The notes under the pieces were generated by a model, which searched no databases, was not told the DNA's origin, and saw only the letters and a program-made list of their open reading frames with translations. Positions 15,361-59,073 of a stretch of 64,000 nt of DNA are shown piece by piece. Within the stretch, counting starts at the first letter, position 1. The number at the start of each line of letters is the position of its first letter. Origin of the DNA: a virus; IMG/VR virus record IMGVR_UViG_3300020005_000004, positions 1-64,000 of that record. One strand, 5' to 3'. Both the position numbers and the translations under genes were made by a program.

Positions 15361-15625
15361 ACTCATAGTTTTTATCGCAATAATATTTGCTATCTTTTGT
15401 TCTTGCAGTAAAACAGAAATCAAAACCGAAGGCCAATGTTTAATTATTTCTTTGAAGTACACAACTCAAAAGGCATTTTTAAAAACCGATACTCTTTACA
15501 ACGATTACCTTACCGGACATTGGTTCCAGGTGTTTGTTGAGAATAAGAAGATTTGGGATTTAGACACAGGTTTTAGGGTTTGTGATCGGGATTTATTTGA
15601 GAGAAGAATTTATATTATAAAATGA
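15344..15625 (+). CDS. Early lipoprotein, superinfection-exclusion candidate, copy A
   Basis: The 93-residue protein has a signal sequence and lipobox (FAIFCSC, Cys22) and a short mature part ending CDRDLFERRIYIIK. A lipoprotein made among early DNA-metabolism genes is unusual. Known cases such as T5 Llp and TP-J34 Ltp block superinfection by binding receptors or incoming tails, so a similar role is suggested. In copy B only the last 17 codons survive (62687-62737) and a different lipoprotein stands in its place. Confidence 0.6.
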   Translation: MEKILKLIVFIAIIFAIFCSCSKTEIKTEGQCLIISLKYTTQKAFLKTDTLYNDYLTGHWFQVFVENKKIWDLDTGFRVCDRDLFERRIYIIK

Positions 15626-16170
15626 AAGTATTAATAGCTTGTGAAGAAAGCCAAGTAGTTTGTAAAGCCTTCAGAGAAAAAGGGCATGAGGCGTTTAGTT
15701 GTGATATACAAGACTGTTCCGGCGGTCATCCTGAGTGGCATATTAAAGACGATATTTTTAATGTTATTTATCAGGATTGGGATTTAAGAATAGGTTTCCC
15801 GCCATGCGATCATTTAGCTGTTTCAGGCGCAAGGTGGTTTGAAGAAAAAAGAAAGGACGGAAGGCAGCAAAAGGGAATTGAATTCTTTTTAAGGCTTGCA
15901 GAGGTTTGTAATGCGATTGAAAACCCAATAGGAATAATGAGTTCTTTATTCAGGAAACCGGATCAGATAATTCAGCCCTGGCAATTCGGTCATGGAGAAA
16001 CGAAGGCAACTTGTCTTTGGTTGAAAGGATTGCCATTACTTAAAGCAACAAACGAAGTAACCGGGCGAGAAGGCAGGATTTGGCGAATGGCTCCTGGACC
16101 TAACAGATCAAAAGAACGATCAAAAACCTTTAGCGGAATTGCGGAAGCAATGAGTTTGCAATGGGGATAA
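15622..16170 (+). CDS. Short C5-cytosine-methyltransferase-like protein, copy A
   Basis: The 182-residue protein has a Rossmann-like start (MKVLIACEESQVVCKAFREK), an acidic second strand (CDIQD) and GFPPCDHLAVSG, which resembles motif IV (PPC) of C5-cytosine methyltransferases. It then has AIENPIGIMS, like motif VI (ENP). It is much shorter than a full enzyme (usually over 300 residues) and lacks a clear target-recognition domain. Such short forms are common in phages and may protect phage DNA. Copy B has a full-length methyltransferase at the same place. Confidence 0.6.
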   Translation: MKVLIACEESQVVCKAFREKGHEAFSCDIQDCSGGHPEWHIKDDIFNVIYQDWDLRIGFPPCDHLAVSGARWFEEKRKDGRQQKGIEFFLRLAEVCNAIENPIGIMSSLFRKPDQIIQPWQFGHGETKATCLWLKGLPLLKATNEVTGREGRIWRMAPGPNRSKERSKTFSGIAEAMSLQWG

Positions 16171-16177: not shown

Positions 16178-16208
16178 TTTGTTTACTAACTGTTCTTTTA
16201 TAAATTAG
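16178..16208 (+). promoter_or_regulatory. Promoter of the leader RNA, copy A
   Basis: TTTG (16178-16181), a 19-bp spacer and TAAATTAG (16201-16208) fit the Bacteroidota promoter pattern. The same boxes, spacer and flanking TTTAC and AGCG occur in copy B at 63807-63837 after an unrelated methyltransferase. Confidence 0.7.
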
Positions 16209-16211
16209 CGT

Positions 16212-16302
16212 TGAATTTTAGCCGGGTGCATCGGTTGAGATGGAAACTCGTAATGGGCTTTAAGGCGTAGGGATGCACCCCCGAAACCTTAAAGCCTTTT
16301 TT
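16212..16302 (+). ncRNA. Structured leader RNA with interlocking stems (pseudoknot), copy A
   Basis: Two perfect helices interlock: GGGTGCATC (16224-16232) with GATGCACCC (16272-16280), and GGCTTTAAGG (16256-16265) with CCTTAAAGCC (16287-16296). A 3-bp GAG/CTC hairpin lies inside the first. The second helix is followed by six T and then the ATG of the 16314 gene 12 nt on, so it also looks like an intrinsic terminator. The RNA may be an attenuating leader or a free small RNA. Copy B has the same topology with unrelated sequence. Confidence 0.65.
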
Positions 16303-16313: not shown

Positions 16314-16994
16314 ATGGCTGAAGGAAAAAATAAAATAATAGTCTATAAGGATTGGATTAAAAAATTTGAAGCCCTTAAAGATGTTGAGGCCGGTAAATTA
16401 ATCAAACACTTCTTTCGTTATGTAAACGATCTAAACCCTGTGGCTCCTGACAGGATAACTGAGCTTTCGTTTATTGACATTGAACAAACACTTAAAAGGG
16501 ATTTAAAGAAGTGGGAAAGTTTTGTTGAAAAACAATCTGAAAATGGTAAAAAAGGCGGCAGACCTGAAAACCCAAAAGAACCCAAAGAAAGCCAAATAAC
16601 CCAAGCCTTAAATAATAAACCCAAAAAAGCCGTTATTGATAATGTTATTGTTATTGATAATGATACTAAAATACAGAATATAGATATAGACTTCGCTTTG
16701 GAACTTCCAGAAATGAAAATTAATAACGCAATCGAATATTTAAGCAGAACCAGAAAAACGGAAGCTGATCGTGACTTAGTGTTAACCCTATGGACTGCAT
16801 TTAAAGAAAAGAATTTCACCGGCGAAAAATTTTACAAATCTGAGGCTAAAATATTTGGACACTTTTTTGAAACTTTAAAATTTGAAAAAATAAATGGACA
16901 TCCAAAAACTCAAACAAGCAATAGACACAAGGGAGCCATGCAACTTGTCTCAAATCTCAAACAAAATTACACCGGAAGAAAAGAAGATTCTTGA
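16314..16994 (+). CDS. DUF6291-like replication-module protein, copy A
   Basis: The 226-residue protein starts MAEGKNKIIVYKDWIKKFEA followed by EAGKLIKHFFRYVNDL, the pattern of the DUF6291 family found in phage replication modules. A GGRPENPKEP-like linker and a basic C-terminal part follow. These proteins resemble replisome organisers but no activity is proven. The gene sits directly behind the structured leader RNA, which may control it. Its 3' end overlaps the next gene by 101 bases in another frame. The copy B homologue starts at 63952 and is cut by the window edge. Confidence 0.65.
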   Translation: MAEGKNKIIVYKDWIKKFEALKDVEAGKLIKHFFRYVNDLNPVAPDRITELSFIDIEQTLKRDLKKWESFVEKQSENGKKGGRPENPKEPKESQITQALNNKPKKAVIDNVIVIDNDTKIQNIDIDFALELPEMKINNAIEYLSRTRKTEADRDLVLTLWTAFKEKNFTGEKFYKSEAKIFGHFFETLKFEKINGHPKTQTSNRHKGAMQLVSNLKQNYTGRKEDS

Positions 16995-28141: not shown

Positions 28142-29383
28142 GTGGCAGATAGATATTTATTAGAAAGTAGTTCTACTGACGGGTATCTTTTAGAAGATGG
28201 CTCCGGTGTTCTTTTACTTCAATTTTCCACATTTACTTCAGCAATAACGGAGTCCGCAACAGCTACAGATAGTAGTAGTGTATCATTGGTAACTTTGTCA
28301 GCCATTACAGAAACTGTTTCATCAACTGAAAGCACATCTTCAACACAGGTAACTTTATCGGCAATAACAGAATCGGGTAGTGCAACTGAGTCTCAAAGCA
28401 ATAATTTTGTGACCCTCCCGTCTATACAGGAAAGCGGGACGGCTACCGAATCTAATAACGCTTTATCTGTCTATGTTGCAGCAATAATTGAGGCGGCAAA
28501 TGCTACCGAAAACGAAACATCTTCCCAACTTTTTATAAATAGTATTACAGAAATCGGCACAGCGACTGAATTAGCTAATTCAACACAGGATTTATTTCCA
28601 ATAATATCAGAAACAGTAAGTAGTACAGAATCTTCATCGGTAACTCAGATATTACCTACTTCTCTTGCTGAAAGCGTAACGGCTACCGAAGTATCGGAAT
28701 CGCTAAAAACTTTAGAAGCATTAATTTCTGAACAAGGCTCAGCGTCAGATTTAAACGATTCATCAGAAGAAGATATAGCCGGAATAACAGAATCAGCAGA
28801 GGCGTTAGATATTGTACAGGCGGTAGGTATATACGGGACTGGTATTATAGAAAGTGGTAACGCAACCGAAACAACAGATGCTGGCTCCGGTATGATTTTA
28901 ACGGCAGACGTTGAAGAAATTGCGTTAGCAGAAGAAACCACAACCGGAACAAGTGTTTATATAGAACCAGTTGTTGTAGATTCAACTGTTTGGATTAAAT
29001 TTGGTAAATTTTCAATTATGCCTTGTGATCCATGCGCTCCAAAATTCATAGTTAGCTGCTTAACTGATGAACCTACTGACGATTTTGAATTTAATATTTA
29101 CGGTCTTGCAGACGGTGTTTATTATTGGCGAATAACGGAAGCAAGTACAGTTTTAACAAAAGCGTTCAGTCACGTCGAAGGGACGCCTCTTTCAATAGCA
29201 GTTTCAGATGTTCCTGATGGATTTTTTCAAACTAAGAGAACGTTCTTATTTGAGATACTTAAAACTGCCTCTTCTGAGAATCCTATTCCTTTTTTAATCG
29301 GTCAGTATGTGGAACAGCTAAGTATAGACATTGAGTGTAATATTTACCCAAGTCAAACAGTAGGAGAGGACACAACTCCATGA
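28142..29383 (+). CDS. Repetitive virion protein with twelve 20-residue repeats
   Basis: The start is GTG at 28142 (MADRYLLESSSTDGYLLEDG), a block common at the N-terminus of phage tail proteins. Residues about 33-272 form twelve degenerate 20-residue repeats of the type SAITESGSATESQSNNFVTL, with the pattern I-T-E-x-x-x-A-T-E. A C-terminal domain of about 130 residues with CDPCAPKF follows. The repeats are Thr/Ser-rich and could be O-glycosylated by the phage enzymes. It is likely a fibre or whisker-like virion protein. Confidence 0.65.
   Translation: MADRYLLESSSTDGYLLEDGSGVLLLQFSTFTSAITESATATDSSSVSLVTLSAITETVSSTESTSSTQVTLSAITESGSATESQSNNFVTLPSIQESGTATESNNALSVYVAAIIEAANATENETSSQLFINSITEIGTATELANSTQDLFPIISETVSSTESSSVTQILPTSLAESVTATEVSESLKTLEALISEQGSASDLNDSSEEDIAGITESAEALDIVQAVGIYGTGIIESGNATETTDAGSGMILTADVEEIALAEETTTGTSVYIEPVVVDSTVWIKFGKFSIMPCDPCAPKFIVSCLTDEPTDDFEFNIYGLADGVYYWRITEASTVLTKAFSHVEGTPLSIAVSDVPDGFFQTKRTFLFEILKTASSENPIPFLIGQYVEQLSIDIECNIYPSQTVGEDTTP
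28238..28957 (+). repeat. Twelve tandem 60-bp coding repeats
   Basis: These 720 bp encode twelve 20-residue units in exact 20-residue register. The DNA is diverged between units while the I-T-E / A-T-E positions are kept, so selection acts on the protein. Confidence 0.7.
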
Positions 29384-47676: not shown

Positions 47677-50136
47677 ATGAAAAGAATACTTTTTTTCATA
47701 GCGATTTTATTTTCGCTTAATGCCTTTTCTCAGTCTACTGTTTTACTGAGGGGAGATACGATTAAAGTTTATAAACAGGGCGGTGACGCTGTCTTGAAGG
47801 TAGAAGGGCATTTAATGCTTAAAGATTACAGACAAGGAAATTCAAACGACTCTGTTCTTACATGGGATGCCACGACAAAGAAAGTCAGAATGATGGATAG
47901 AAATAGTTTTGCGGGTGGCAGCACTCCAACACTTCAACAGGTAACAGGGGCTGATAGTATAACTAATCATAGAATACGAATAGATAATGTGGCAGGTGAT
48001 CCGGTTATTTATTTACAGAATGCGGGATATGTTGGAACGATAGACGTACTTAATCCCGCCAATTCTGCCGGAGTTAGTGTTCAAGGGGCAACGGGCTCTG
48101 TCCAATTATCAAATGCAGCAGGATTTACTGGAAGAATTTCACCAACAGATTTAACCGCTAATCATTATTATGAATTAAGAAACACAGGAAACGGTAACGA
48201 TACACTTGCAACACTATACGACGTTCGTGCAGGCGGCGGTGGAGGTGGTACAGGTTCTAATCTTTCATGGGATGCAGCAAATCACCAAGTAGATATTGAC
48301 GGTGGAGGTACAAGCGCAACTATTCCTTATGCTACAACAGCAACAGATGGTTTGATAAGTTCATCAAGTCAAACAATAGATGGTGCTAAAACTTTTAATA
48401 ATGGTATAGTAGCTCCTTCAATTAGTGATGCATCTGCATTATTTAATTTACATATTACAGCAGGGCAAGGGGATTTATCATTATCAAATGGTTCTGCTAC
48501 AGATCATATAAGACCACAGGCATCTTCATCAGGAAGTAGTAATAGATTACCGAATACAGGGAATGTGGCAGACACACTTGCAACGTTATATGATATTCGG
48601 GCTGGTGGCGGTGGCGGCGGTTATACAAACCTCACCCAATTTGTAGCACAGAATAACTGGAAAATATTTCATAGCGATGGTAGTGGCGATGTACAGGAAC
48701 TTTCATTAGGTGCTGCCGGTTCTCCATTTTATTCCGTAGGCACTTCTTCTACACCGGCATTCTTTGCAGGTGTTACTTACGCCACAAGCGGGACAAACGT
48801 AAAAATAACAACACAGAACACTACTGATGTAGGATTAGAAATAAAATTAGCATCTTCTCAAACAGCTAACGCTTTAAATATTTCATCGAGTAGTGGAACA
48901 GGCGATTTGGCAATTATTGACGCAGCAGGTGCATCAAGATTTACAAGTGAAATAATTGGTACGGCATCGGCAAGAAAAATAGAACTATTCGCTAACGGGG
49001 AGGCGTTGTTTACAAGCGATGCAACTGCTTCTATTTACGATCCCGATGCCTTTGATAATACAACTCAAATTTACGGCAGTGGCAATGCAAGGCTTCTTGT
49101 TTCTAGCGGAAGCGGATATGACCATAGTTTAGTAGCTGTCACTGGTAATTTATTTGGAGTTTATTCAGGATTTGTAGATGGAGGCGGAATAGGAATGGAA
49201 ACTAATAACGCATTAAATTTAATTACAAACAAAGTTACACGGTTAACCATAACCTCAGCAGGGGCAATTACTGTTCCAGAACAAGCGGCTTCGGCAACTC
49301 CGGGTGCTAATAATGTAACCATCTATCCTAAATCAGACGGTCTTTGGTATGGCAAAGATGATGCAGGGGTAGAAACTAAATTGAGTAATGATGCGGGCGG
49401 TACTCCAACATTCCAACAAGTATTAACAGCAGGTAGCACGTTAAGCGGAAGCAATACAGTAAATATAAATACATCAGATTTTACATTTGACGGAACAACC
49501 GGAGGCCTTAGAGCTATAACTTCAAATTCAATTCCTATTACAGCAAGGTACAGCGCAGCTTCCACAAATACGATAGCTACTGTATTATCTGTACAAAGAT
49601 TTACAAGCGGGTCTGCTGCTTCTGGAATAGGAAGCAGAATTGAATTTCCGACATCAAACTCTTCTGGGGTTGTTAACGGGACGGAAATAATTTCAAAACT
49701 TACTGCTGTAACAGCCACCGCCGAAACATCTCAAACTTTAATAACAGGAGTTTCTAAGGGTGTTATAGATACAACTATGGCATTAGGTGGTTATGTTACT
49801 TTAACTGAATCATCGGCTACAAAATTTACATCAACAACAATAGCATCAGGAAAAATTCAAGGCGGTTCAATATTGATTACGATTGAATCAAATGATGCAA
49901 CAGATTACCAAAGCAGAACATTAAGATTTATTTGGAGTGCGGTTAATAAGGCCGGGACACTTACAATAACATTAAGCACACCTGAAGAAGTGGTTGCTTT
50001 ATCTTCTGGAACGCTTACTTGTACGATCACGGCAGTAGATGCAGGAAGCGGAGTTTTAGATTTTAAGGCTAATGCGGTTAGTTCGTTAACACAAACAACA
50101 TTAAGAGCAACTTATCAAACGTTTAAAAATTTCTAA
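47677..50136 (+). CDS. Tail-fibre-like protein with Sec signal peptide, copy B
   Basis: The 819-residue protein begins with a signal peptide (MKRILFFIAILFSLNAFSQ), then VYKQGGDAVLKVEGHLMLKD, which matches the visible start of the copy A fibre. Three STPTLQQVT-like linkers (about nt 47917 and 49399) and glycine-rich repeats (AGGGGGG) separate domains. Unlike copy A it has no pectate-lyase-like segment, so the receptor-binding part was exchanged. A signal peptide on a tail fibre is unusual, since virions assemble in the cytoplasm. It follows a terminator and may start a new transcript. Confidence 0.78.
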   Translation: MKRILFFIAILFSLNAFSQSTVLLRGDTIKVYKQGGDAVLKVEGHLMLKDYRQGNSNDSVLTWDATTKKVRMMDRNSFAGGSTPTLQQVTGADSITNHRIRIDNVAGDPVIYLQNAGYVGTIDVLNPANSAGVSVQGATGSVQLSNAAGFTGRISPTDLTANHYYELRNTGNGNDTLATLYDVRAGGGGGGTGSNLSWDAANHQVDIDGGGTSATIPYATTATDGLISSSSQTIDGAKTFNNGIVAPSISDASALFNLHITAGQGDLSLSNGSATDHIRPQASSSGSSNRLPNTGNVADTLATLYDIRAGGGGGGYTNLTQFVAQNNWKIFHSDGSGDVQELSLGAAGSPFYSVGTSSTPAFFAGVTYATSGTNVKITTQNTTDVGLEIKLASSQTANALNISSSSGTGDLAIIDAAGASRFTSEIIGTASARKIELFANGEALFTSDATASIYDPDAFDNTTQIYGSGNARLLVSSGSGYDHSLVAVTGNLFGVYSGFVDGGGIGMETNNALNLITNKVTRLTITSAGAITVPEQAASATPGANNVTIYPKSDGLWYGKDDAGVETKLSNDAGGTPTFQQVLTAGSTLSGSNTVNINTSDFTFDGTTGGLRAITSNSIPITARYSAASTNTIATVLSVQRFTSGSAASGIGSRIEFPTSNSSGVVNGTEIISKLTAVTATAETSQTLITGVSKGVIDTTMALGGYVTLTESSATKFTSTTIASGKIQGGSILITIESNDATDYQSRTLRFIWSAVNKAGTLTITLSTPEEVVALSSGTLTCTITAVDAGSGVLDFKANAVSSLTQTTLRATYQTFKNF

Positions 50137-50138
50137 TA

Positions 50139-50573
50139 ATGAAATATATATTCATATTAATAACAGGGCTTTTTTTATCAGCTATTATTTACGCTCAAAA
50201 CATAGATACAGTTTATGTTCGTAATCTTCAATTAAAATACGAAGAATGGAGCTGGATCGCAGGTGGAATAAATCCACAAGGTTTAGATTCTGTTAATAAG
50301 AAACGATACAAAAAGTTGATAAAGTTTTTAGACAATGCTAATCCTGCTGGCTTTGCAACTAATGTTACTTATGATTCTTTACCAGGAAGATTTGCAATGT
50401 TCGCTTTTCAGGAATACTGGAGCCACCATGAAGCTAGAGACAATATGGGAACTGGTATAGATACTAAATTAAGGTTATACACTCCTTTATCAAGTTTCAT
50501 TGCTGCGGCAGATGCGGCAAGGTTATCTTTATTTATAAACAGAAGAAATGCGGGGCGAGATGCCATAGAATAA
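50139..50573 (+). CDS. Secreted protein of unknown function
   Basis: The 144-residue protein has a Sec signal peptide (MKYIFILITGLFLSAIIYAQ) and a mature part with Trp-rich IDTVYVRNLQLKYEEWSWIA. It lies where copy A has the unrelated 2536 protein. No domain recognised. It is part of the fibre/lysis transcript and is likely exported. Confidence 0.55.
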   Translation: MKYIFILITGLFLSAIIYAQNIDTVYVRNLQLKYEEWSWIAGGINPQGLDSVNKKRYKKLIKFLDNANPAGFATNVTYDSLPGRFAMFAFQEYWSHHEARDNMGTGIDTKLRLYTPLSSFIAAADAARLSLFINRRNAGRDAIE

Positions 50574-50594
50574 AAACATTTAAAAATAAAATAT

Positions 50595-50897
50595 ATGGTA
50601 AAAGTAAAACCTCCGAAACCGCCTCATGGCACACCTCCGAACACTATTCCTGCTCCAGAAGGATTAATTGCTACTATTAAATCAGATGGCGTTCTTCTTC
50701 AATGGTACAGCGTTCCACTTGCAACAACTTACTGGATTTCCAGAAGTGACAGAGAAGCATTAGGTGAAAAAGCTATTGCAATCATTACACAAACAATTTT
50801 TACGGATCACTTTCCTGTTGCTGGAACTACTTATAAAGTTGCTGCAGTTGTTGGTGATACACTTGGAAACTTTTCAGCTTCTGTAACTCCTATATAA
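50595..50897 (+). CDS. Fibronectin type III-like small protein, copy B
   Basis: The 100-residue protein is the copy B homologue of 4280, with the same FN3-like body (LLQWYSVPLATTYWISRSDR) but a different Pro/Gly/Thr-rich linker (KPPKPPHGTPPNTIPAPEGL). It starts in an ATG after an A-rich leader and overlaps the next gene by one base. Confidence 0.65.
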   Translation: MVKVKPPKPPHGTPPNTIPAPEGLIATIKSDGVLLQWYSVPLATTYWISRSDREALGEKAIAIITQTIFTDHFPVAGTTYKVAAVVGDTLGNFSASVTPI

Positions 50898-51118
50898 TGT
50901 CAGATGCAGTATTAATAGTAGTTGTACCCTCAGCAATAACCACTATTGGGTTAATTGTTGTAGCTTACTTAAATACTAGGCAGAACAAAAAAATTTCAGA
51001 AAAGGTTGATGGATATCATAAAGAGGTGAATGGGAAAATGGGTGAGTTGTTAACGACAACAAAAGCACTAGGTAACGCAGAAGGAAAAGCACAAGAAAAA
51101 GCGAAAGGTAAAAAATAA
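50897..51118 (+). CDS. Small membrane protein only in copy B
   Basis: The 73-residue protein has an N-terminal membrane segment (LIVVVPSAITTIGLIVVAYL) and a charged, Lys-rich tail. It is inserted between the FN3 and the coiled-coil membrane genes, where copy A has no gene, with TAATG and one-base overlaps. It resembles small holins or antiholins in layout. Confidence 0.55.
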   Translation: MSDAVLIVVVPSAITTIGLIVVAYLNTRQNKKISEKVDGYHKEVNGKMGELLTTTKALGNAEGKAQEKAKGKK

Positions 51119-51405
51119 TGGGAGCGAAATTTGATGCACTTTTTAAGGCGTTTAAAGACAATCCTACTGCTGCAATTATGACGTTGCTAGTAATTGGCAT
51201 TTCTGTTATGTTTACTATTAATCAAAGAACAAACGAAAATATTAAAGATGATTTGAAGAAGGCGAACAAAGATTGTGCAACGGCAAATTTTGTTCAGGGT
51301 GTTGAAATGAAACAATTGAGAAGTCAGAATGTTGAAACGTTTGGATTATTGAAAGAATTACAGGGACAATTTAAAATTTTGAAAGACTTAGGTAAAATAC
51401 AATGA
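51118..51405 (+). CDS. Small single-pass membrane protein with coiled coil, copy B
   Basis: The 95-residue protein is highly similar to 4579 in its first half (MGAKFDALFKAFKDNPTAAI and the transmembrane segment) and has a diverged coiled coil after. The pattern suggests conserved membrane function and exchangeable coiled coils. It is coupled to the 51402 gene by 4 bases. Confidence 0.6.
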   Translation: MGAKFDALFKAFKDNPTAAIMTLLVIGISVMFTINQRTNENIKDDLKKANKDCATANFVQGVEMKQLRSQNVETFGLLKELQGQFKILKDLGKIQ

Positions 51406-52145
51406 AAATAATTATACCGTTTTTGATTTTTTTAGCTTCCTGTGGTGCGAATAATTCTAACTCTACGAAAACTCATAAACCATCTACAGTCGATTCGCTT
51501 ATTAAAACATCAGACAGCGTTAACGATGCTCTCAGGGATATGAAATCAGACATGGCGCAAGCTATAAGTTTCGCAAAGAAGATAGTTAGTTTAAAGAAAG
51601 AAAAGGATATGTATGAGCAGCCTGTTTTAGCAGATAAATATTCAGATGCTTACTATCTTCCTTCGGATGAGAAAGATAAAAAGATTCGTGAATTAACTGA
51701 ACAGATATTACAATACGAAAGGGAAATATCAAGACTTAAAAAACGTATCGAAGCAGACAGTTTAATTAAGTTCGGAAAGGTAAAGCCGATGCCTGATTAT
51801 ATAGAATCTGACCCTCCAAAACCCGATGGAAAGAGTTTAATCGTTAACTTAGACAAGAGAATGAGGGGCGATGGTGATATTTCAGATAGCGCAGCAAGTG
51901 TTTATATAATCCCGTATAGTAAGAAGATTAAAAAATATATGCGGTATGACATATACTGCGCAGGGGTTGATCTATCGAATGCTAAACAGGCTTATTATTA
52001 TGGAGGATTGTATTTTTTTAATGATGTTCCTCCTGGTGAATACTTGATAAAAGTTTGTGCTTATTATGGCAACTATAAAAAAATTAAAAGAGAAACCGAT
52101 GGCTATCAAATGGTGACTATGCAAATGTCTCCACCTATTCAATAA
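51402..52145 (+). CDS. Lipoprotein with coiled coil and beta-sandwich-like C-terminus, copy B
   Basis: The 247-residue protein is the homologue of 4866. It has a lipobox (FLIFLASC, Cys14), coiled coil (EKDKKIRELTEQILQYEREI) and C-terminal YFFNDVPPGEYLIKVCAYYG, ending MSPPIQ. N-terminal halves differ, C-terminal halves are well conserved. Likely role in lysis or surface interaction. Confidence 0.65.
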   Translation: MKIIIPFLIFLASCGANNSNSTKTHKPSTVDSLIKTSDSVNDALRDMKSDMAQAISFAKKIVSLKKEKDMYEQPVLADKYSDAYYLPSDEKDKKIRELTEQILQYEREISRLKKRIEADSLIKFGKVKPMPDYIESDPPKPDGKSLIVNLDKRMRGDGDISDSAASVYIIPYSKKIKKYMRYDIYCAGVDLSNAKQAYYYGGLYFFNDVPPGEYLIKVCAYYGNYKKIKRETDGYQMVTMQMSPPIQ

Positions 52146-52159
52146 TTAAAAACAAATGT

Positions 52160-52453
52160 ATGAGTACAACTACAACAACATCGAAACAATTCACTCTTAA
52201 TCTTAATGACTTTTGGAAAGGCTTGATCATGGCAGTTGGTGGCGCAGTATTTCAGATCATAGTTGATACTATTAATTCAGGTACTTTGACTTTTGACTGG
52301 AACGCTATCTGGAAAACAGCGTTAGGTGCAGCAGTTGTTTATTTGGGTAAAAACTTTTTTACATCTTCAGCTATCGTTGTAAAAGATGTTCCAAAAGAAA
52401 CAGTTGAAGCAGTTAAAGAGGGTGATGCAAAAGTTACTGTTACTAAGCAATGA
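52160..52453 (+). CDS. Holin candidate with two membrane segments, copy B
   Basis: The 97-residue protein is the homologue of 5636. It has two hydrophobic segments (LIMAVGGAVFQIIVDTI and WKTALGAAVVYLGKNFF) and a charged tail. It overlaps the u-spanin gene by 4 bases (ATGA). Confidence 0.6.
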   Translation: MSTTTTTSKQFTLNLNDFWKGLIMAVGGAVFQIIVDTINSGTLTFDWNAIWKTALGAAVVYLGKNFFTSSAIVVKDVPKETVEAVKEGDAKVTVTKQ

Positions 52454-52974
52454 AGAAATGGGCATTCATATTATGTTTTGGATTCTTAGCCTGTAATGTA
52501 GAGAACAGGCAAAAGATTAAAGCACAACTTTACCTTTTAAAACATCCTGAATTTTCTGCGGGTTATTGCGCTGAACAATTCTCTGATAAACCGGATTCGG
52601 TAATAGTAAAAACCGATACTGTAACTGAGATTCAGTTTATGGATTCGATAGTTTTTGATACGGATACTCTTTTCAGGGATTCATTAGGTTTTAAATACAG
52701 GACAATTACAAAGATCGTAACCAAAACTATCAGGAAAGATTCGATCATTTATCGGGAGAACAGAGCCGAACAGGAACGATTGCAATTAGCCTTACTTGAA
52801 TGCCAAAAGACAACGGCTGCTTTAGTTCAAAAAAATACAGTCTTAGAACAAGATAGAAACGAATGGAAAGGGAAGGCAAGAAAAAGAGGCTGGATGTTTT
52901 TGGGTTTAATATTCTTGGTTGTAGGTGCTGTCGGAATGAGACTATATTTAAAAAGTAAATCAATTATAATATGA
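52450..52974 (+). CDS. u-spanin-like lipoprotein with C-terminal membrane anchor, copy B
   Basis: The 174-residue protein is the homologue of 5923 and starts with ATG. It has a lipobox (LCFGFLAC, Cys15), charged helical middle and C-terminal transmembrane segment (GWMFLGLIFLVVGAVGMRLY). The layout outer-membrane lipid anchor plus inner-membrane segment is kept although the middle is diverged. It should fuse the two membranes at the end of lysis. Confidence 0.7.
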   Translation: MKKWAFILCFGFLACNVENRQKIKAQLYLLKHPEFSAGYCAEQFSDKPDSVIVKTDTVTEIQFMDSIVFDTDTLFRDSLGFKYRTITKIVTKTIRKDSIIYRENRAEQERLQLALLECQKTTAALVQKNTVLEQDRNEWKGKARKRGWMFLGLIFLVVGAVGMRLYLKSKSIII

Positions 52975-53849
52975 AAAAACTAGTCCCTATAATTATAGCC
53001 GTGTTTCTTGCCGGTTGTAATGGTCAGCCAAAAGATGACCGAGTGCCGAGAGAAGATACTACAGTTACGCCAATAGATACTACAATAATTGAAGACGGGA
53101 TTTCGCCGGTAGCATCAAACGTTACCGCTAAAGCTAAACCACAAAAGAAAGAAAAAATAACTTGCTCATTCGGGTTTAAAAAACTGAACAACAGGAAACG
53201 ACCAATTGAAGAAGCTCCAGGAGGGAAGAAAGGTAAGCCTGTTAAACCCGGAACCGAACCACCCCTTCCTCCTCAGCCTCCTACAATTTCAAACAATGTT
53301 ATTTATATAAACTATTTCGGGAAAGATATTCCTCCTACCATGTGGAGCATAACGCCATTTACTGTTGGTGATGCTGGATTAGCACAGCCTGAAATCGACT
53401 ACATAACAACAGCCGTAGCGGCACATTTCCCTGATTATAATATAAGGATCACACAAGACAAAGCTATTTTTGATGCTGCTCCTATTGGTCACAGAATCGA
53501 AGTAGTAGTTACCGAAGATTACCAATGGTACGGAAGTGCAGGAGGAGTTGCTTACTTAAATTCTTTCACTTGGTCGGATGGATCACCCGCTTTTGTTTTT
53601 AGCACTCTGTTAAGTTACAATTCACATTACATCGCTGAAGCTATTGCACATGAAGCGGGTCATACACTTGGTTTAAGACATCAGTCAGAATGCGTAAACG
53701 GTGTTAAAACTGTTGAATATTCTTACGGTAAAACAATGGGTAATAGCTATGGGTCATATCCACAAGGTGCTTGGGTTATAGGAGTAAATCCTTTTTGTGC
53801 AACACAGGATGACAATGCTTTATTAACAGCAGCAGTTGGGAGGAAATAA
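52971..53849 (+). CDS. Lipoprotein with metzincin-type zinc metalloprotease domain, copy B
   Basis: The 292-residue protein has a lipobox (VFLAGC, Cys16) and the zinc motif HEAGHTLGLRHQ (near nt 53650) with a Met-turn candidate KTMGNSYGSY. It is similar to the copy A protein (3256), but its gene lies between the u-spanin and muramidase genes instead of directly after the fibre gene. The same zinc and Met-turn segments are conserved. The Pro-rich linker (EPPLPPQPPT) is different. Confidence 0.75.
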   Translation: MKKLVPIIIAVFLAGCNGQPKDDRVPREDTTVTPIDTTIIEDGISPVASNVTAKAKPQKKEKITCSFGFKKLNNRKRPIEEAPGGKKGKPVKPGTEPPLPPQPPTISNNVIYINYFGKDIPPTMWSITPFTVGDAGLAQPEIDYITTAVAAHFPDYNIRITQDKAIFDAAPIGHRIEVVVTEDYQWYGSAGGVAYLNSFTWSDGSPAFVFSTLLSYNSHYIAEAIAHEAGHTLGLRHQSECVNGVKTVEYSYGKTMGNSYGSYPQGAWVIGVNPFCATQDDNALLTAAVGRK

Positions 53850-53850
53850 T

Positions 53851-54042
53851 ATGAAATCAGGAGATTGGGTTTTAATAATGTTAGCCTTTTGCGTTACCGC
53901 TTCAATACTGATTACGGTTGCAGGGATAGTATTTAAGGGTAAAGAGGCAAATGAACATTCTGTGGTGATAAGGACGGCTTTGATTGATCTTCTTAAAGTA
54001 ATTGTCGGTGGTGTCATCGGCGCAATAAGTTCACATTTATGA
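53851..54042 (+). CDS. Small two-pass membrane protein, holin/antiholin candidate, copy B
   Basis: From the ATG at 53851 the 63-residue protein has two hydrophobic segments (DWVLIMLAFCVTASILITV and LLKVIVGGVIGAISS). It is the positional equivalent of 6441 and overlaps the muramidase by 4 bases. It could be the holin released with the endolysin. Confidence 0.55.
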   Translation: MKSGDWVLIMLAFCVTASILITVAGIVFKGKEANEHSVVIRTALIDLLKVIVGGVIGAISSHL

Positions 54043-54608
54043 TAACAGAAAAAGCCTTTAACGATTCTGCTGCACTTTTAGGAGTAGAGCCAGCAGTCAT
54101 AAAAGCGGTTGCAGAGGTAGAAAGCTCCGGTGATGGGTTTCTTTCTTCAGGACATCCTAAAATCCTTTTTGAGCCGCACGTCTTTTGGGCAGAACTAAAA
54201 AAGCGTAGAATTGACCCCAAAACGATCACAGGGGCTTCAGACATACTTTATGAGAAATGGACAACAGGAAAGTACGGTAAAACTTCAGCCCAGCCTGAAC
54301 GCTTAAAACGGGCAATAGCGATAAACAAAGAAGCGGCTTTAAGTTCGGCAAGTTGGGGCAAGTTTCAAATAATGGGGTATAACTACGGACTTGCAGGATT
54401 TGCAGATGTTGATTCTTTTGTTGCAGCTATGCACATTGACGAGGATCAGCACCTTCATGCCTTTGTAAACTTCGTTAAGAATAAGAATTTAGTTCAATAC
54501 CTGGTAACTAAAAACTGGCCTAAGTTTGCTGAAGGATTTAACGGATCTGGGTATAAGCAGAATAAGTATGATGAGAAACTGGCGGCTGCTTATAATAAGT
54601 TTTCCTGA
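54039..54608 (+). CDS. Endolysin, N-acetylmuramidase family, copy B
   Basis: The 189-residue protein is highly similar to the copy A lysin, with AVAEVESSGDG, SGHPKILFEPHVFW, SASWGKFQIMGYNY and FNGSGYKQNKYDEKLA. The C-terminal 20 residues diverge. It cuts peptidoglycan glycan strands and is the last gene of the rightward late block in copy B. Confidence 0.9.
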   Translation: MITEKAFNDSAALLGVEPAVIKAVAEVESSGDGFLSSGHPKILFEPHVFWAELKKRRIDPKTITGASDILYEKWTTGKYGKTSAQPERLKRAIAINKEAALSSASWGKFQIMGYNYGLAGFADVDSFVAAMHIDEDQHLHAFVNFVKNKNLVQYLVTKNWPKFAEGFNGSGYKQNKYDEKLAAAYNKFS

Positions 54609-54609
54609 T

Positions 54610-54641
54610 CATGTGTTCCTCCTTTGGGGTTTTATAGATTG
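54610..54641 (-). repeat. 32-bp identical leader block (copy B, gene lost)
   Basis: These bases are identical to 7617-7648 and still hold AAAGGAGG and an ATG on the minus strand. The 43-residue membrane gene is missing: the ATG now leads into a 24-codon frame antisense to the lysin. It marks a deletion or exchange junction. Confidence 0.65.
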
Positions 54642-55189
54642 GATAAAATATTTAACGCTTCTTTTATTAAGATTAACGGATTGCCGTCAGGATGAAACCC
54701 GCCAACTTTGTTTACAAATCCTTTCAGCCTTTCATTCTCGGCTTTTAGTTCCTCTATTTGTTTTGATTGTTGAAATTTATCTGCGTCTGCATCAAGCAAT
54801 ATTTGGGCATTATAAGATTTTAATTCTACACACTCCTTCTCTTTCTCATTTAAGGATGATTGGAGGGAGGTGATTTTATCAAAAATTGCATCGTATAACG
54901 GTTGACATGGTTCGCCAATATCATTCCTGCTAAAAATAAGTTCCCGTACTTTATCGGTTTGTTCACGGTAAAATTCAACTTTCGTTTTATACAACGCCAA
55001 TTCCTTCTCCAATTCTTCCCGCCCATCGGTTGCAAGTTGGCGCATTTCATCCCACATTACTATCTCTCCTGCCATGTAGATAGATTTTAAACGTGGCTCG
55101 TTTTCAGCAATAAGGTAATCTCTTACTTCTTTAGCGGCCTGTAATTGTTCTTCTGAAAAATTGTTTCTCTCTTTCGGTATAGTTGACAT
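54632..55189 (-). CDS. Coiled-coil accessory protein (fusion of blocks from two copy A genes)
   Basis: The 185-residue protein begins MSTIPK and contains QLATDGREELEKE as in the copy A 8050 protein, then ITSLQSSLNEKEKECVELK as in the 7639 protein, and ends in ILSNL. It reads as a recombined fusion of the two copy A genes. Long charged coiled coils dominate. It is the last gene of the copy B leftward block, and its stop lies in the 32-bp leader block. Function unknown. Confidence 0.6.
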   Translation of the reverse strand: MSTIPKERNNFSEEQLQAAKEVRDYLIAENEPRLKSIYMAGEIVMWDEMRQLATDGREELEKELALYKTKVEFYREQTDKVRELIFSRNDIGEPCQPLYDAIFDKITSLQSSLNEKEKECVELKSYNAQILLDADADKFQQSKQIEELKAENERLKGFVNKVGGFHPDGNPLILIKEALNILSNL

Positions 55190-55211
55190 TGTTTTTATTT
55201 TTGGTTTGAGG

Positions 55212-55421
55212 TTAAAGAGATTTTAATAATTCTTCTTTACTGCTAAACATTTTTTCGATGTTGTTTGCGATTCTGTTTTGGTCAATGGTTATATTGTAAG
55301 ATTCGTAACTTGATGTACTATCACTAAATGTTTTAATAGCATTTACTTTTCCCGTTTCGACTTTGTTGCTAAACAAAAACCAAACAATATCGCCAACATT
55401 ATATTTCGTTTCTACCTTCAT
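55212..55421 (-). CDS. Small protein with SH3-like segment
   Basis: The 69-residue protein reads MKVETKYNVGDIVWFLFSNK, a typical SH3-like beta-barrel start (VGDIVWFL), then a polar tail. It could bind nucleic acid or protein. The start is preceded by an A-rich leader. No copy A homologue was seen, though VGDYLTIG occurs in the 8646 protein. Function unknown. Confidence 0.5.
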   Translation of the reverse strand: MKVETKYNVGDIVWFLFSNKVETGKVNAIKTFSDSTSSYESYNITIDQNRIANNIEKMFSSKEELLKSL

Positions 55422-55469
55422 AATTTTTATTTTTTATCCCCCAAGGGTTTTGTTTAATTTGTTTGTCAG

Positions 55470-55775
55470 CTAAGCAGCCGTTTTTAATTTTCGTTTCCTT
55501 CTGTTATTGGATTGTTCTTTTGGAGTTGACCACTTACAATTACGCTTTGAATAGTTGCCATCATTTTTAATCCTGTCCAGAGACTTTCCTTCCGGTCTTT
55601 CGCCCATGTCAGCAAAGAAGTTCAAAAAGGATTTTAGCCATCTCTTACAAACAGAAATTCCCCTTGCTCCATAGTCTTTATACTTTGGGTCTTTAGGATT
55701 ATAGCATCTTCTTTTCATGTGATCCCAAGAGTTCCATTCTCTTGACTTCCATTTACCGTGTGTTGTTTTTGGCAT
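55470..55775 (-). CDS. Small endonuclease-like protein (GARGISVC family)
   Basis: The 101-residue protein has NSWDHMKRRCYNPKDPKYKD, YGARGISVCKRW, SLDRIKNDGNYSKRNCKWST and a basic end (NNRRKRKLKTAA). This ordered pattern is widespread in phages and usually annotated as a mobile endonuclease or DNA-binding protein related to AP2-domain homing enzymes. A nuclease role is likely but I could not place the active site. It stands in the leftward block. Confidence 0.55.
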   Translation of the reverse strand: MPKTTHGKWKSREWNSWDHMKRRCYNPKDPKYKDYGARGISVCKRWLKSFLNFFADMGERPEGKSLDRIKNDGNYSKRNCKWSTPKEQSNNRRKRKLKTAA

Positions 55776-55817
55776 CTTTATTTTTTTTATTTACTTCCTA
55801 CTGCTCAATAATTCCCC

Positions 55818-55838
55818 CCGTCTAAAGACGGAAGCGGT
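55818..55838 (-). repeat. Intergenic GACGGAAGCGG repeat (copy 2 of 3, hairpin form)
   Basis: On the minus strand CCGTC TTTA GACGG forms a perfect 5-bp hairpin next to ACCGCTT. The other copies (8611-8640, 56028-56056) keep ACCGCTTCCGTC but continue into an A-rich leader. Confidence 0.5.
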
Positions 55839-55840
55839 GA

Positions 55841-56029
55841 TTAAGTGTTTTTTATAATAAATTCATTCCAATCTTTTTCAGACGCACACATCATTAAGGT
55901 TGGTATCATTTTAACGTCTCCTTTTTCGTACCAAACAGATGTTTCGCTGACTTTAAAAACAAAGCCAATACTTTCTAATTGACTTGCTCTTTCGTTTATT
56001 ATTTGTTCTTCTGATGTCATGGTTAACAT
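55841..56029 (-). CDS. Small acidic-helical protein of unknown function
   Basis: The 62-residue protein reads MLTMTSEEQIINERASQLES and ends with CASEKDWNEFIIKN. The start is likely at the ATG behind an A-rich leader; the second Met (residue 4) is an alternative. No family recognised. Confidence 0.5.
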   Translation of the reverse strand: MLTMTSEEQIINERASQLESIGFVFKVSETSVWYEKGDVKMIPTLMMCASEKDWNEFIIKNT

Positions 56030-56056
56030 TTTTATTTTTTAAGACGGAAGCGGTTA
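56028..56056 (-). repeat. Intergenic GACGGAAGCGG repeat (copy 3 of 3)
   Basis: The sequence is almost identical to 8611-8640 and forms the leader of the 55841 gene, with ACCGCTTCCGTCTT before an A-rich stretch. Confidence 0.5.
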
Positions 56057-56063
56057 GAGATTG

Positions 56064-56432
56064 TTAAGATTGTCTTCTATTTTGCGCTGCTCTTAATTTT
56101 TCCAGATACTCGTCGGCATTCGTTTCGTATGTTGCTAACAACCCCTTCAATCTTTCAACTTCCTTTTTCAACTCCTCACAGTCTCGGTCACCTGTGGGGG
56201 AGGGGGTTTGGGATTTATCCATTAGTTTATTAAACCGGCTATTGCATTGTTCAAATAACGACATCCAATAATTTATTTCTTTCAAAATATCATTTGGTAA
56301 AAGCAAATCAACGCCGATACAACCAATACAAGTAGTGTTTGCTTTATTATGCGCAGCGCCGTCATCTCCTATATGGTAAGCATATACAAATCGTTTTCTT
56401 ATTTTGTCAAAGCATATTATTTTATTTGCCAT
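56064..56432 (-). CDS. Mosaic accessory protein with TGDRDCEELKKEVERLKGL
   Basis: The 122-residue protein has an N-terminal domain with a Cys pair (NTTCIGCIGVDLLL) and the segment TPSPTGDRDCEELKKEVERL, encoded by a block almost identical to parts of the 8646 gene in copy A. The end is basic (AAQNRRQS). It is another block-assembled gene of the leftward cluster. Function unknown. Confidence 0.55.
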   Translation of the reverse strand: MANKIICFDKIRKRFVYAYHIGDDGAAHNKANTTCIGCIGVDLLLPNDILKEINYWMSLFEQCNSRFNKLMDKSQTPSPTGDRDCEELKKEVERLKGLLATYETNADEYLEKLRAAQNRRQS

Positions 56433-56490
56433 AATTATTCTTTTATTAAAAGTAAGTGTGAATATTGTTTATACGATTATTATTTCTTCC

Positions 56491-57030
56491 TTACTCATTT
56501 ACTTTCTGTTTTTGGTTTTGATAGATGGTGTATAGTTGCTCGGTTGTGTAGTGATAATCAAGTTGTATATTTTTGCCATCGCAATAGTCGTCATTGAAGC
56601 ATTCCCAAATATTATTAAGAGCAAGCATTTTAAATCCATTGCCTACCCAATCCGCAAATCCAATAGCATCTGAAGAAGTAGCACAGGGTTCTATGGATTC
56701 TGATAGCCATTCAATTTTATCAAAGTCTTTTTTATAGATATAGTAATCTTCAAAAGCCCCGCAGCCATTCACCCAAAAAACTATTTCTCCTTCATTACTA
56801 ATATCACAAAAATTTCCATTAACCTTATCGAACCCGTTTAGTCTAAAATGATAATTTGGGCTGTCTGATTCAGGCAATAGTTCACTTGCTTTCACCCATC
56901 TGCATCCCTGCCTATTGAGGGAGGCGTATTCGGTCATAGCTGCGATAACATCATCACGGTGATAGTAGCTATCTTCGCTCCATTTTGATTTGTGCTTTTT
57001 CAGCACATCCTCTGGCATTATTTCCTTCAT
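56491..57030 (-). CDS. DUF551/Ea22-like mosaic protein
   Basis: The 179-residue protein has HRDDVIAAMTEYASLNRQGC, then RWVKASELLPES, EIVFWVNG, IEWLSESIEPCATSSDA and a C-terminal helical part. The CRWVKASxxLPE to EWLSES stretch is the DUF551-like pattern. SLNRQG, RQGCRWVK and IEPCATSS are encoded by blocks that are identical to DNA in three different copy A genes. It may be translated as one protein. Function unknown. Confidence 0.6.
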   Translation of the reverse strand: MKEIMPEDVLKKHKSKWSEDSYYHRDDVIAAMTEYASLNRQGCRWVKASELLPESDSPNYHFRLNGFDKVNGNFCDISNEGEIVFWVNGCGAFEDYYIYKKDFDKIEWLSESIEPCATSSDAIGFADWVGNGFKMLALNNIWECFNDDYCDGKNIQLDYHYTTEQLYTIYQNQKQKVNE

Positions 57031-57033
57031 TGC

Positions 57034-57417
57034 TTAATTATTTTCATTGTAATCTTTAATAAATTCTACTACTGCGTTATATGTAGCTTCAATTAAAGTG
57101 GCTGCGCTAAATAATGTATTGGCATTGAATCTTACCATGTAATTACCTTCGCTATCTCTCATACCAAAAGTTCTCGGATAAGCGCAATCCTCCCATTCAT
57201 TAGCATCATCAGGCTTTATGCCGCCCCAATAATCAGGATAATGAATATTTGAAATCTTTTCTACCACAGGCATAAGCCAATCCCATGAGTAATGATAACG
57301 TGCCTCTTTGAAATTAACCTTTGTAACTGGATGCCCGAATGGATATTTTTCACCCTTTATTAGATAAAGTTCCATAAACTCTGCAATCAATTTATTTCCT
57401 TCAATAGTAGGTGTCAT
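57034..57417 (-). CDS. Conserved small phage protein (NKLIAEFM type)
   Basis: The 127-residue protein starts MTPTIEGNKLIAEFMELYLI and contains YHYSWDWLMPVVEKIS, a pattern common in small uncharacterised Bacteroidota phage and mobile-element proteins. It ends FIKDYNENN. It shares the MTPTIE start and leader with the copy A 10482 gene. Function unknown. Confidence 0.55.
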   Translation of the reverse strand: MTPTIEGNKLIAEFMELYLIKGEKYPFGHPVTKVNFKEARYHYSWDWLMPVVEKISNIHYPDYWGGIKPDDANEWEDCAYPRTFGMRDSEGNYMVRFNANTLFSAATLIEATYNAVVEFIKDYNENN

Positions 57418-57423
57418 AGTCTT

Positions 57424-57675
57424 TTATTGTTTGTAGGTTTGGGTGAAATATTGGTTGCCATCTTGCTTTTCGGGTCTGCCTTCAACAGGTGTATCAATTT
57501 GCCCTTGACAATAAGCATCTACTATCTGGGTCTTTTCTTTTTCTAAAAGCGATTTGGCTACTTTTTTTACATCGGTAATTGCTGTATCAGCTTCACTATT
57601 ATATGTGCCTTCAACTAATTCCATGCTTTCGATAAGAATTTGCATTGCTGTCTTAGTAGGTTTGTCTTGTGTCAT
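57424..57675 (-). CDS. Small helical protein of unknown function
   Basis: From the ATG at 57675 (MTQDKPTKTAMQILIESMEL) the protein has 83 residues; an earlier in-frame ATG at 57705 is less likely. It is helical with VKKVAKSLLEKEKTQIVDAY and a polar tail. Similar sequences (MQIL... EKEQI..A) are frequent in Bacteroidota phages as hypothetical proteins. Confidence 0.5.
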   Translation of the reverse strand: MTQDKPTKTAMQILIESMELVEGTYNSEADTAITDVKKVAKSLLEKEKTQIVDAYCQGQIDTPVEGRPEKQDGNQYFTQTYKQ

Positions 57676-57726
57676 ATATTTAGTTTTAAAAAGGGGATCG
57701 GCCAAACCAAATCCCCTGCTACCAAC

Positions 57727-58062
57727 TTAACAAGTTTCCTCTTGGTTTTCGTGGATCAGTCTCATTGTTGCTTTAAAGTCGAAATCTTTTAAAGCCTTGT
57801 TTAATGCTTGGAAAAATTCTTCTTCTGCGATATGCTCCCAAGAATCAATGGCAATTTTTATATTTCTTATATAATCTTCGGTTGCATCATTTTCTACTGA
57901 AACTCTTTTATTGGGGTACATGAAAATTGAAATAGTACATTCTTCAATAACGGCCATATACTTTGTGATGTTAGAAGAAACGATTTCTTTAAAGAAAGCC
58001 GGAGTTTCTAATTCAATAGATACTTCGGTTGGAACGCTTACGGTTGTTTTTAAATTTAGCAT
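57727..58062 (-). CDS. Conserved leftward protein starting [10 protein letters not shown], copy B
   Basis: The 111-residue protein is the homologue of 11289 with an identical first ten residues and weak similarity beyond. It is not interrupted by an endonuclease gene, so it may show the natural length. It lies two genes after the conserved hairpin. Function unknown. Confidence 0.55.
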   Translation of the reverse strand: MLNLKTTVSVPTEVSIELETPAFFKEIVSSNITKYMAVIEECTISIFMYPNKRVSVENDATEDYIRNIKIAIDSWEHIAEEEFFQALNKALKDFDFKATMRLIHENQEETC

Positions 58063-58080
58063 GGTTTGTTTATTTAAAGT

Positions 58081-58290
58081 TTAAGAAAAATTGATAATAT
58101 TATAAAGGCCGAATTTTTCGATTTCTTTTTTAACATCCCAATTAACCTTACCCCATAAGTATTCGTTCTGAACAAAATAATCTATTTGCTCAAGTTTATT
58201 CCAGTCATAGGCGGTTATCTGTCCATCAGAGTAAAACACATGAATTGATTGCTCGTTATAGTTAACTGCAAATTTTGAAACTGTTGCCAT
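58081..58290 (-). CDS. Small early leftward protein
   Basis: The 69-residue protein starts MATVSKFAVNYNEQSIHVFY and has beta-strand character (HVFYSDGQITAYDWNKLEQ), ending YNIINFS. It lies just after the conserved hairpin at 58321-58347. No copy A homologue. Function unknown. Confidence 0.5.
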   Translation of the reverse strand: MATVSKFAVNYNEQSIHVFYSDGQITAYDWNKLEQIDYFVQNEYLWGKVNWDVKKEIEKFGLYNIINFS

Positions 58291-58320
58291 AAAAAATGTT
58301 TTTGGTTTGTTTAAAAATTA

Positions 58321-58347
58321 GTTCCCCTACTTTCGATTTCGGGGAAC
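58321..58347 (-). terminator. Conserved hairpin in the leftward transcript, copy B
   Basis: On the minus strand GTTCCCC pairs with GGGGAAC around GAAATCGAAAGTA, followed by TAATTTTTAAAC. The copy A hairpin at 11625-11652 has nearly the same loop and another stem. It is a candidate attenuator, or a protein-binding hairpin such as an antitermination site. Confidence 0.6.
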
Positions 58348-58356
58348 GTAAACTAT

Positions 58357-58602
58357 TTAAGAATTATTTTTTAATCTAAGTTTCATTTCGGCTAATACTT
58401 CTTTGTAACAATCAACCCCTTTCCATCTGTTCGGGTTGTACTTGATTGAATCTACAACCATTCCCTGATTAATTATTTTGCCCCATGTGCCGTTATTGTT
58501 AAAATCCTTTCCGGTTAAAGAGGGGTTATAATCTACCTGAAAATCTAACAGCATTTCAACTGTGTTAGTAATCTCGTTTGTTCTGATTGATAAGCGTGTC
58601 AT
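58357..58602 (-). CDS. First leftward early protein, copy B
   Basis: The 81-residue protein starts MTRLSIRTNEITNTVEMLLD and continues with beta-rich and basic segments (KYNPNRWKGVDCYKEVLAEM). It begins 20 bp downstream of the promoter at 58623. The copy A protein at the same place is unrelated. Function unknown; likely early regulator or host-takeover protein. Confidence 0.5.
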   Translation of the reverse strand: MTRLSIRTNEITNTVEMLLDFQVDYNPSLTGKDFNNNGTWGKIINQGMVVDSIKYNPNRWKGVDCYKEVLAEMKLRLKNNS

Positions 58603-58622
58603 TTTGTTTACGTTTTAGGATT

Positions 58623-58653
58623 CAAATATACAACCCTTTTTGATATTACCAAA
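58623..58653 (-). promoter_or_regulatory. Leftward early promoter, copy B
   Basis: On the minus strand TTTG (58650-58653), a 19-bp spacer and a perfect TATATTTG (58623-58630) give a consensus Bacteroidota promoter. It drives the 58357 gene and the leftward block. Confidence 0.75.
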
Positions 58654-58681
58654 TAATTCTTTATAAATAATTATATAAATA

Positions 58682-58713
58682 TTTGGCGGTTTGGATTAGG
58701 CAGATTACTTTAG
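58682..58713 (+). promoter_or_regulatory. Rightward early promoter, copy B
   Basis: TTTG (58682-58685), a 20-bp spacer and TACTTTAG (58706-58713) match the consensus. The box ends 4 nt before the ATG at 58718, so the mRNA is leaderless. It lies 28 bp from the divergent leftward promoter. Confidence 0.7.
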
Positions 58714-58717
58714 CGTT

Positions 58718-58930
58718 ATGAAACACGAATTAAAAACAGAGGTTAGCAATGAAGAAAAGCAAATAGTTCGTTTGCTTTTATCTGGTAAAAAAACAGAAGA
58801 AATTGCAAAGGTTGTTGGTATAAAGCCAGAAAACATTGCTACCAAACTAAGAGAAATCAGAATTAAATACGGCTGCAAAAATTCGGTAGAACTTGCCGGA
58901 TATTTTTTAAGAGAAGGAATAATAAACTAA
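58718..58930 (+). CDS. LuxR/GerE-type helix-turn-helix regulator, copy B
   Basis: The 70-residue protein is a stand-alone LuxR-type HTH: EEKQIVRLLLSGKKTEEIAK, VVGIKPENIATKLREIRIK and YGCKNSVELAGYF, with the conserved Glu/Val/Leu and Lys positions. It is the first rightward gene behind its own leaderless promoter and divergent from the leftward operon. That is the place of a repressor or activator of the lytic switch. Copy A has a ribbon-helix-helix-like protein here. Confidence 0.75.
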   Translation: MKHELKTEVSNEEKQIVRLLLSGKKTEEIAKVVGIKPENIATKLREIRIKYGCKNSVELAGYFLREGIIN

Positions 58931-58935
58931 AACCT

Positions 58936-59073
58936 ATGGCATACCTTTTTATCAGCTCCGTTTTAATCGTTTTTGTTTTTGCTTCTTATTTGATATTCAG
59001 AATAAGGATTCATAGAAACGATGTACGAAAGGCTAAGAGGCAATGGGATGATTCAGACAATATTTATTTATAA
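58936..59073 (+). CDS. Conserved 45-residue membrane microprotein, copy B
   Basis: The frame reads MAYLFISSVLIVFVFASYLIF, then RIRIHRNDVRKAKRQWDDS, ending at 59073. It differs from the copy A protein (12198) in only a few residues and most DNA is unchanged. Both flanking genes differ between the copies. It has a single transmembrane segment and a strongly charged cytoplasmic tail. Confidence 0.7.
   Translation: MAYLFISSVLIVFVFASYLIFRIRIHRNDVRKAKRQWDDSDNIYL

Follow-up and report, generated by a model that had tools for sequence, protein, structure and literature searches.

Predicted two-hairpin leaders with complementary 7-nt loops before replication genes of Bacteroidota phages: a candidate transcription attenuator

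An apparently widespread regulatory RNA of Bacteroidota phages is described here, a leader with two predicted hairpins located ahead of replication genes. The loop of its second hairpin (K2) is the Watson-Crick complement of the loop of the first (K1), and this relation is kept by compensatory changes. With moderate confidence, we favour the reading of this leader as a promoter-proximal transcription attenuator of the phage replication operon, in which the two hairpins would be joined by a variable 7-nt kissing-loop code, feedback in trans being preferred. The specificity code is easily read, and cultured carriers exist.

Two leaders in the analysed window

Copy A was found at positions 16178–16302 of the window (the whole stretch of 64,000 nt analysed), where a promoter of the Bacteroidota type is followed by a predicted two-hairpin RNA of about 85 nt. 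The promoter, both complementary helices, the T6 and the spacing to the ATG reported for this interval in an earlier note could all be read directly from the sequence. Elements of this copy and of the second one, copy B, are listed below together with the evidence for each.

16178–16208, + strand: copy A promoter, TTTG (16178–16181), 19-nt spacer and TAAATTAG (16201–16208); sequence reading
16215–16241, + strand: copy A hairpin 1, arms 16215–16225 and 16231–16241; minimum-free-energy fold
16255–16302, + strand: copy A predicted terminator hairpin, stem 16255–16265 with 16287–16297, cap GGG 16270–16272 with CCC 16280–16282; fold
16314–16994, + strand: DUF6291 (PF19808) replication-module gene behind copy A; Pfam E 4.8e-21, weak PHROG primosomal match
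63807–63837, + strand: copy B promoter, TTTG, 19 nt and TATATTAG; similarity to copy A
63839–63946, + strand: copy B leader; fold z −5.0, detector, four relatives that share the backbone and have other loops with compensated changes
63839–63855, + strand: copy B 5′ hairpin; fold
63856–63893, + strand: copy B hairpin 1, K1 GAGTGAA at 63872–63878; fold and detector
63910–63941, + strand: copy B predicted terminator hairpin, K2 TTCACTC at 63923–63929; fold and detector
63941–63946, + strand: copy B T6; sequence
63952–64000, + strand: start of the DUF6291 gene behind copy B, which continues beyond the window end; tblastn with the copy A protein on L211, 59% identity

The copy A promoter begins 8 nt past the stop codon of a methyltransferase-like gene. 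Its arrangement, TTTG-N19-TAAATTAG, conforms to the −33/−7 type of Bacteroidota with one mismatch in the −7 box, and bears out by sequence the claim that the RNA has a promoter of its own. Hairpin 1, overlooked in the earlier note, shows the kissing loop K1 GGTGCAT (GGUGCAU in RNA) at 16225–16231; the loop has 5 nt in the fold itself and 7 if the closing G-U pair and its neighbouring geometry open. A linker of 13 nt separates it from the terminator hairpin, whose 7-nt apical loop K2 ATGCACC (AUGCACC in RNA; 16273–16279) is the exact reverse complement of K1. The candidate terminator, closed by T6 at 16297–16302, ends 12 nt before the ATG at 16314, as expected from the earlier suggestion of a terminator directly before the replication gene. 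Relatives of the encoded protein in Flavobacterium and Olleya phages carry the annotation “replication protein”.

Folded without a pseudoknot, copy A contains both hairpins at −32.6 kcal/mol; the z-scores of −2.8 for copy A and −5.0 for copy B agree with the proposal of a structured leader. Complementarity pairs GGGTGCATC (16224–16232) with GATGCACCC, and GGCTTTAAGG (16256–16265) with CCTTAAAGCC (16287–16296). These were previously seen as two perfect interlocking helices; they are complementary and, on paper, interlocked, but the 9-bp helix is better read as a 7-bp kissing contact plus two flanking bases. The pseudoknot-blind fold of copy A wraps the first strand in an 11-bp hairpin (16215–16225 with 16231–16241) and encloses the second with the GGG/CCC cap, so that the interlock is best taken as a contact of 7 bp between two hairpin loops. 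An H-type pseudoknot with free 9-bp helices was rejected because pseudoknot-blind folds place both strands in hairpin loops and the 7-nt loops are kept in many members. The idea of a base-pairing switch between an exclusive pseudoknot and a terminator is not supported in that form: as the two pairings involve separate bases, the secondary structure can accommodate both, and no competing antiterminator is conserved. If kissing and terminator exclude one another, the exclusion would be steric, owing to the short linker.

Copy B (63807–63946) was located via the promoter it shares with copy A. The order of elements is identical, in accord with the earlier assertion of a second copy of the same design. 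Identity between the copies reaches 80% across the first 52 nt, and RNA sequence in common is almost nil. The RNA sequence of copy A has no relative in the viral collection searched; what recurs is the architecture and the promoter only.

The contig consists of two related phage segments head to tail, 1–20.6 kb and 47.8–68.3 kb, with about 70–92% nucleotide identity in matching stretches. Copies A and B thus represent one site in two related phages and not two leaders of one genome. The segments (1–20600 and 47780–64000, on to 68335) lie about 47 kb apart and their terminases share 87% amino acid identity; the arrangement is either a true tandem or a chimera assembled from permuted genomes. 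DUF6291 proteins behind copy A (16314–16994) and copy B (L211 from 953) are 59% identical overall, whereas one stretch further downstream in the gene is 90% identical at the DNA level, and the leader together with the 5′ part of the gene therefore seems to have been swapped as a module. The slot right before the leader holds differing DNA methyltransferase-type genes (15622–16170 for copy A, 62734–63804 for copy B), and still other genes in relatives. Imperfect direct repeats were also observed within long ORFs at 28279–28794 and 48174–48621, with 36-nt copies at multiples of 60 nt and a 76-nt pair.

The leader family and its loop code

Five further virus contigs with relatives of copy B emerged from a promoter scan combined with a protein search. 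Their backbone is near-invariant, and the kissing strands are GAGTGAA/TTCACTC, AGAACGAC/GTCGTTCT, GAGCGAC/GTCGCTC, GTGTGAC/GTCACAC and GTGAGTA/TACTCAC. Genes that follow leaders of the copy B type encode DUF6291 or another replication-type (primosomal-like) protein. For a family survey, we inspected the DNA preceding 170 genes for relatives of either protein type; they come from IMG/VR contigs and cultured phages. Using a strict detector, a kissing-loop leader was recorded upstream of 87 of the 170 replication-gene starts, with about 33 distinct loop 7-mers, a few being probably chance matches. Cultured carriers include the Flavobacterium phages 11b, elemo and tooticki/sniff/hattifnatt/hemulen, and the Olleya phage Harreka_1, while leaders in Cellulophaga phi19:3 and phi13:2 were recognised by complementarity. 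Leaders missed by the first detector, such as L072, L108 and L114, have near-perfect loop complements by eye.

Backbones differ widely among leader subfamilies. Loop 7-mers average 55% G+C, compared with 34% for their upstream regions. A TAnnTT(T/C/A)G box occurs upstream of hairpin 1 in all but two leaders when one representative per distinct loop is considered (29 of about 31), and TTG is enriched at the −33 position (52–59% vs 0–17% elsewhere). The predicted length from transcription start to T-tract is 76–98 nt in most members, close to 87 nt. In most distinct leaders the T-tract lies 7–20 nt ahead of the ORF, a position indicative of a leader or attenuator role. From these sequence features we infer that the leaders carry a promoter and a terminator.

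Complementarity of the loops was assessed on 67 distinct terminator loops. An upstream complement of at least 7 nt exists for 53 of them, against 285 of 4422 swapped pairs (6%), in regions chosen without selecting on complementarity; some swapped pairs come from phages that have one loop in common, and each true pair was scored at its best T-run, slightly in its favour. Among the 11 sequences of subfamily A4, each of the 7 kissing pairs shows variation, with both sides changed and none broken, and both-side changes affect 22 of the 36 pairs overall. The whole A4 structure is 89% paired, compared with at most 49% when partners are slid by one column; the 100% reached by its kissing helix is a somewhat flattering figure, as the exact-complement detector had supplied many members in the first place. 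Kissing pairs of group B are replaced in 5 of 7 cases, always on both sides, in comparison with 3 of 18 stem pairs (Fisher p = 0.017). Counted as pairwise differences in a hand-registered alignment, group B kissing helices differ in 28 of 70 pairs, all both-sided, and the three stems in 14 of 180, none both-sided. In most folds computed blind to K1 and K2, both fall in hairpin loops.

Some genomes contain more than one leader. The phage tooticki (L207, 11608 and 12647) and the contig L175 (1209 and 2908) have two leaders each, with different loops, the second preceding a nuclease/SSB operon in tooticki and a DNA methylase operon in L175; control may therefore extend to DNA-metabolism operons generally and not to one gene. 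Four muminphage-related genomes examined indicate that phages with common hosts can have common loops. Differing loop codes were found in L021 and L031, relatives from one metagenome. The code GTAGGAT/ATCCTAC is retained in 31 virus contigs (L041–L083) from many metagenomes, though stems and upstream genes vary, and the loop code is thus not always fast-evolving.

Rfam 15 gave no match at the gathering cut-off in the window or in 18 loci, most of them with leaders, and only chance-level matches around copy A at E values up to 10, in keeping with the absence of a known RNA family stated in the earlier note. BLASTN with copy B against phage and plasmid records yielded only chance matches, and the exact promoter pattern had three chance matches and no leader in bacterial genomes. 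In 397 Flavobacteriaceae genomes the replication gene scored above the cut-off in 5, all without a leader. A covariance model detected no leader in 792 bacterial genome searches under strict filters; it fits one subfamily well and has modest sensitivity outside it, yet picks up some of the other subfamilies, in each case where the leader is expected. No description of such a leader was found in the open-access literature.

Attenuation model and alternative readings

With a putative terminator ahead of the ATG, an attenuator is the simplest reading. RNA polymerase would start at the leader promoter, then either stop at the T-tract, giving an RNA of roughly 75–100 nt, or read into the replication gene, and the K1–K2 contact would set the ratio of termination to read-through. 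Complementarity of hairpin 1 and linker to the terminator arms equals that of swapped controls (mean 6.10 vs 6.05 for the 5′ arm; 5.87 vs 6.03 for the 3′ arm). As no base-paired antiterminator is conserved, the K1–K2 contact is the only conserved partner of the terminator.

Linkers between the two hairpins have a median of 13 nt. In a crude rod model of kissing geometry (2.8 Å per bp, 6 Å per linker nt; approximate), 24 of 30 leaders have a linker that falls short of spanning a straight end-to-end stack of two closed hairpins, and in 16 of 30 it falls short even with a 60-degree bend; several linkers could reach. By these estimates, a kiss in cis may work against completion of the terminator, or the kissing partners may be separate molecules. 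On this ground we prefer the feedback model. Hairpin 1 would form first and capture K2 of the same nascent chain, and the short linker would let this cis kiss oppose full closure of the terminator, resulting in read-through. Released leader RNAs would build up with genome copies and present the same loops in trans; by occupying K1 or K2 of new nascent chains they would free the terminator from its cis contact and shut the operon. Replication genes would thereby come under a feedback that titrates itself and is sequence-specific, only RNAs of the same code being recognised. Read-through by the cis kiss and termination by the trans kiss are hypothetical, and no other part of the argument is less certain than this wiring.

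That two leaders in one genome differ in their loops (tooticki, L175) fits an avoidance of cross-talk. Many related phages have the device with other lock-and-key sequences, and it probably is an RNA switch that has had no name so far and bears a code for self-recognition. It is possible, and we put this forward tentatively, that it forms a large unnamed class of phage leaders in which one sense transcript brings along its own code of loop-loop recognition; once released, such leaders would gauge in trans how many copies of their phage are present and turn off the replication operon, the code defining compatibility groups among co-infecting virulent phages.

Covariation would also arise from a purely cis role. 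In the alternative that survives best, kissing builds a compact single-RNA fold that stabilises the terminator or binds a phage or host protein acting on RNA polymerase, in a nut/put-like manner. Both loops are on one transcript, and effective local concentration favours pairing in cis; the kissing helix draws on none of the bases of the terminator helix, and no alternative antiterminator pairing is conserved. The strongly conserved backbone of group B is as expected of a protein site, but such a site leaves unexplained both the replacement of loops on a near-constant backbone and the different loops per genome, and backbones vary widely among subfamilies. On balance, we consider a leader acting in cis only rather unlikely.

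A stable phage small RNA, whose terminated product (monomer or kissing dimer) would act on host or phage targets while the replication gene is expressed mainly from upstream promoters, appears improbable. Own promoter and terminator, judged by sequence, and the compact predicted fold (copy B z −5.0) suit it; against it, phages and gene neighbourhoods of great diversity preserve the place right before the ORF, as do the second copies before methylase and nuclease operons, and the would-be target-binding loops are replaced between close relatives. More doubtful still is a P4 CI-like RNA of superinfection or lysogenic immunity, by which the leader of a resident would cut short replication transcripts of a newly entering phage whose loops match: the target type (replication operon) and the outcome (premature termination) are as in P4 (PMC4825925), and the loop code varies among related phages, including L021 and L031 of one metagenome, but muminphages, which carry the leader, are described as exclusively lytic (PMC7077304), the copies of the replication gene found in bacterial chromosomes lack it, the covariance model gave none in the 792 bacterial genome searches (strict filters), and loops are common to phages of the same hosts.

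If, as the attenuation model with trans feedback proposes, the loops act in trans, the leader would be an RNA-based device of virulent phages for copy-number control or self-recognition, and nature would offer in it many orthogonal attenuators. Should its action be confined to cis, the loop of the terminator itself would still be the sensing element, a design not found described in the open-access literature.

Comparison with known RNA regulators

In the replication control of ColE1 (RNAI/RNAII) and ColIb-P9/IncB, specificity is likewise determined by the sequence of short loops with full complementarity. Kissing loops of these systems act on primer formation or translation and involve antisense strands, whereas the leader described here is itself a putative terminator. 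In antisense RNAs of the P1 c4 type, complementary elements reside within one leader transcript.

Attenuation controlled by kissing hairpins, with programmable specificity, is established for pT181 (PMC3753616), and the ColIb-P9 loop-loop regulator is also included in that work. As in pT181, the leader lies upstream of a replication gene with a predicted intrinsic terminator just before it, and termination would be set by kissing of hairpin loops; specificity in pT181 resides in the loop and upper stem (PMC3753616). The antisense RNA of pT181 is, however, a separate molecule from the opposite strand, while here one sense transcript bears both partners, and the terminator's own loop serves as K2. 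In addition, the pT181 leader has an antiterminator sequence and none is conserved here, and pT181 is a plasmid system whereas the present leaders belong to phages.

The P4 CI RNA, with its seqA and seqC, resembles K1 and K2 in having complementary elements in one leader, and its premature termination ahead of replication genes (PMC4825925) resembles the termination proposed here. P4 CI is a processed RNA for lysogeny, unlike a two-hairpin leader with matching 7-nt loops in phages that include virulent ones. The lysogenic immunity of P4 CI and c4 is not paralleled, the leader being present in muminphages (lytic only, PMC7077304) and not found with the chromosomal copies of the gene. Like IsrK of prophage Gifsy-1, it would use one promoter for two products, a short RNA that ends at the terminator and an mRNA made by read-through; in IsrK the former acts on the latter (PMC4825925). 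IsrK differs in that it switches on translation of the read-through transcript, leading to antiterminator production, and the available text of that source describes no kissing-loop terminator design for it.

The leader most resembles pT181 attenuation and P4 CI, yet lacks a defining feature of each, the antiterminator of the former and the lysogenic immunity of the latter. It is classed as a variant of RNA-controlled attenuation, within neither the pT181 nor the P4 CI family, in which both partners are on one sense RNA and the terminator loop is the target.
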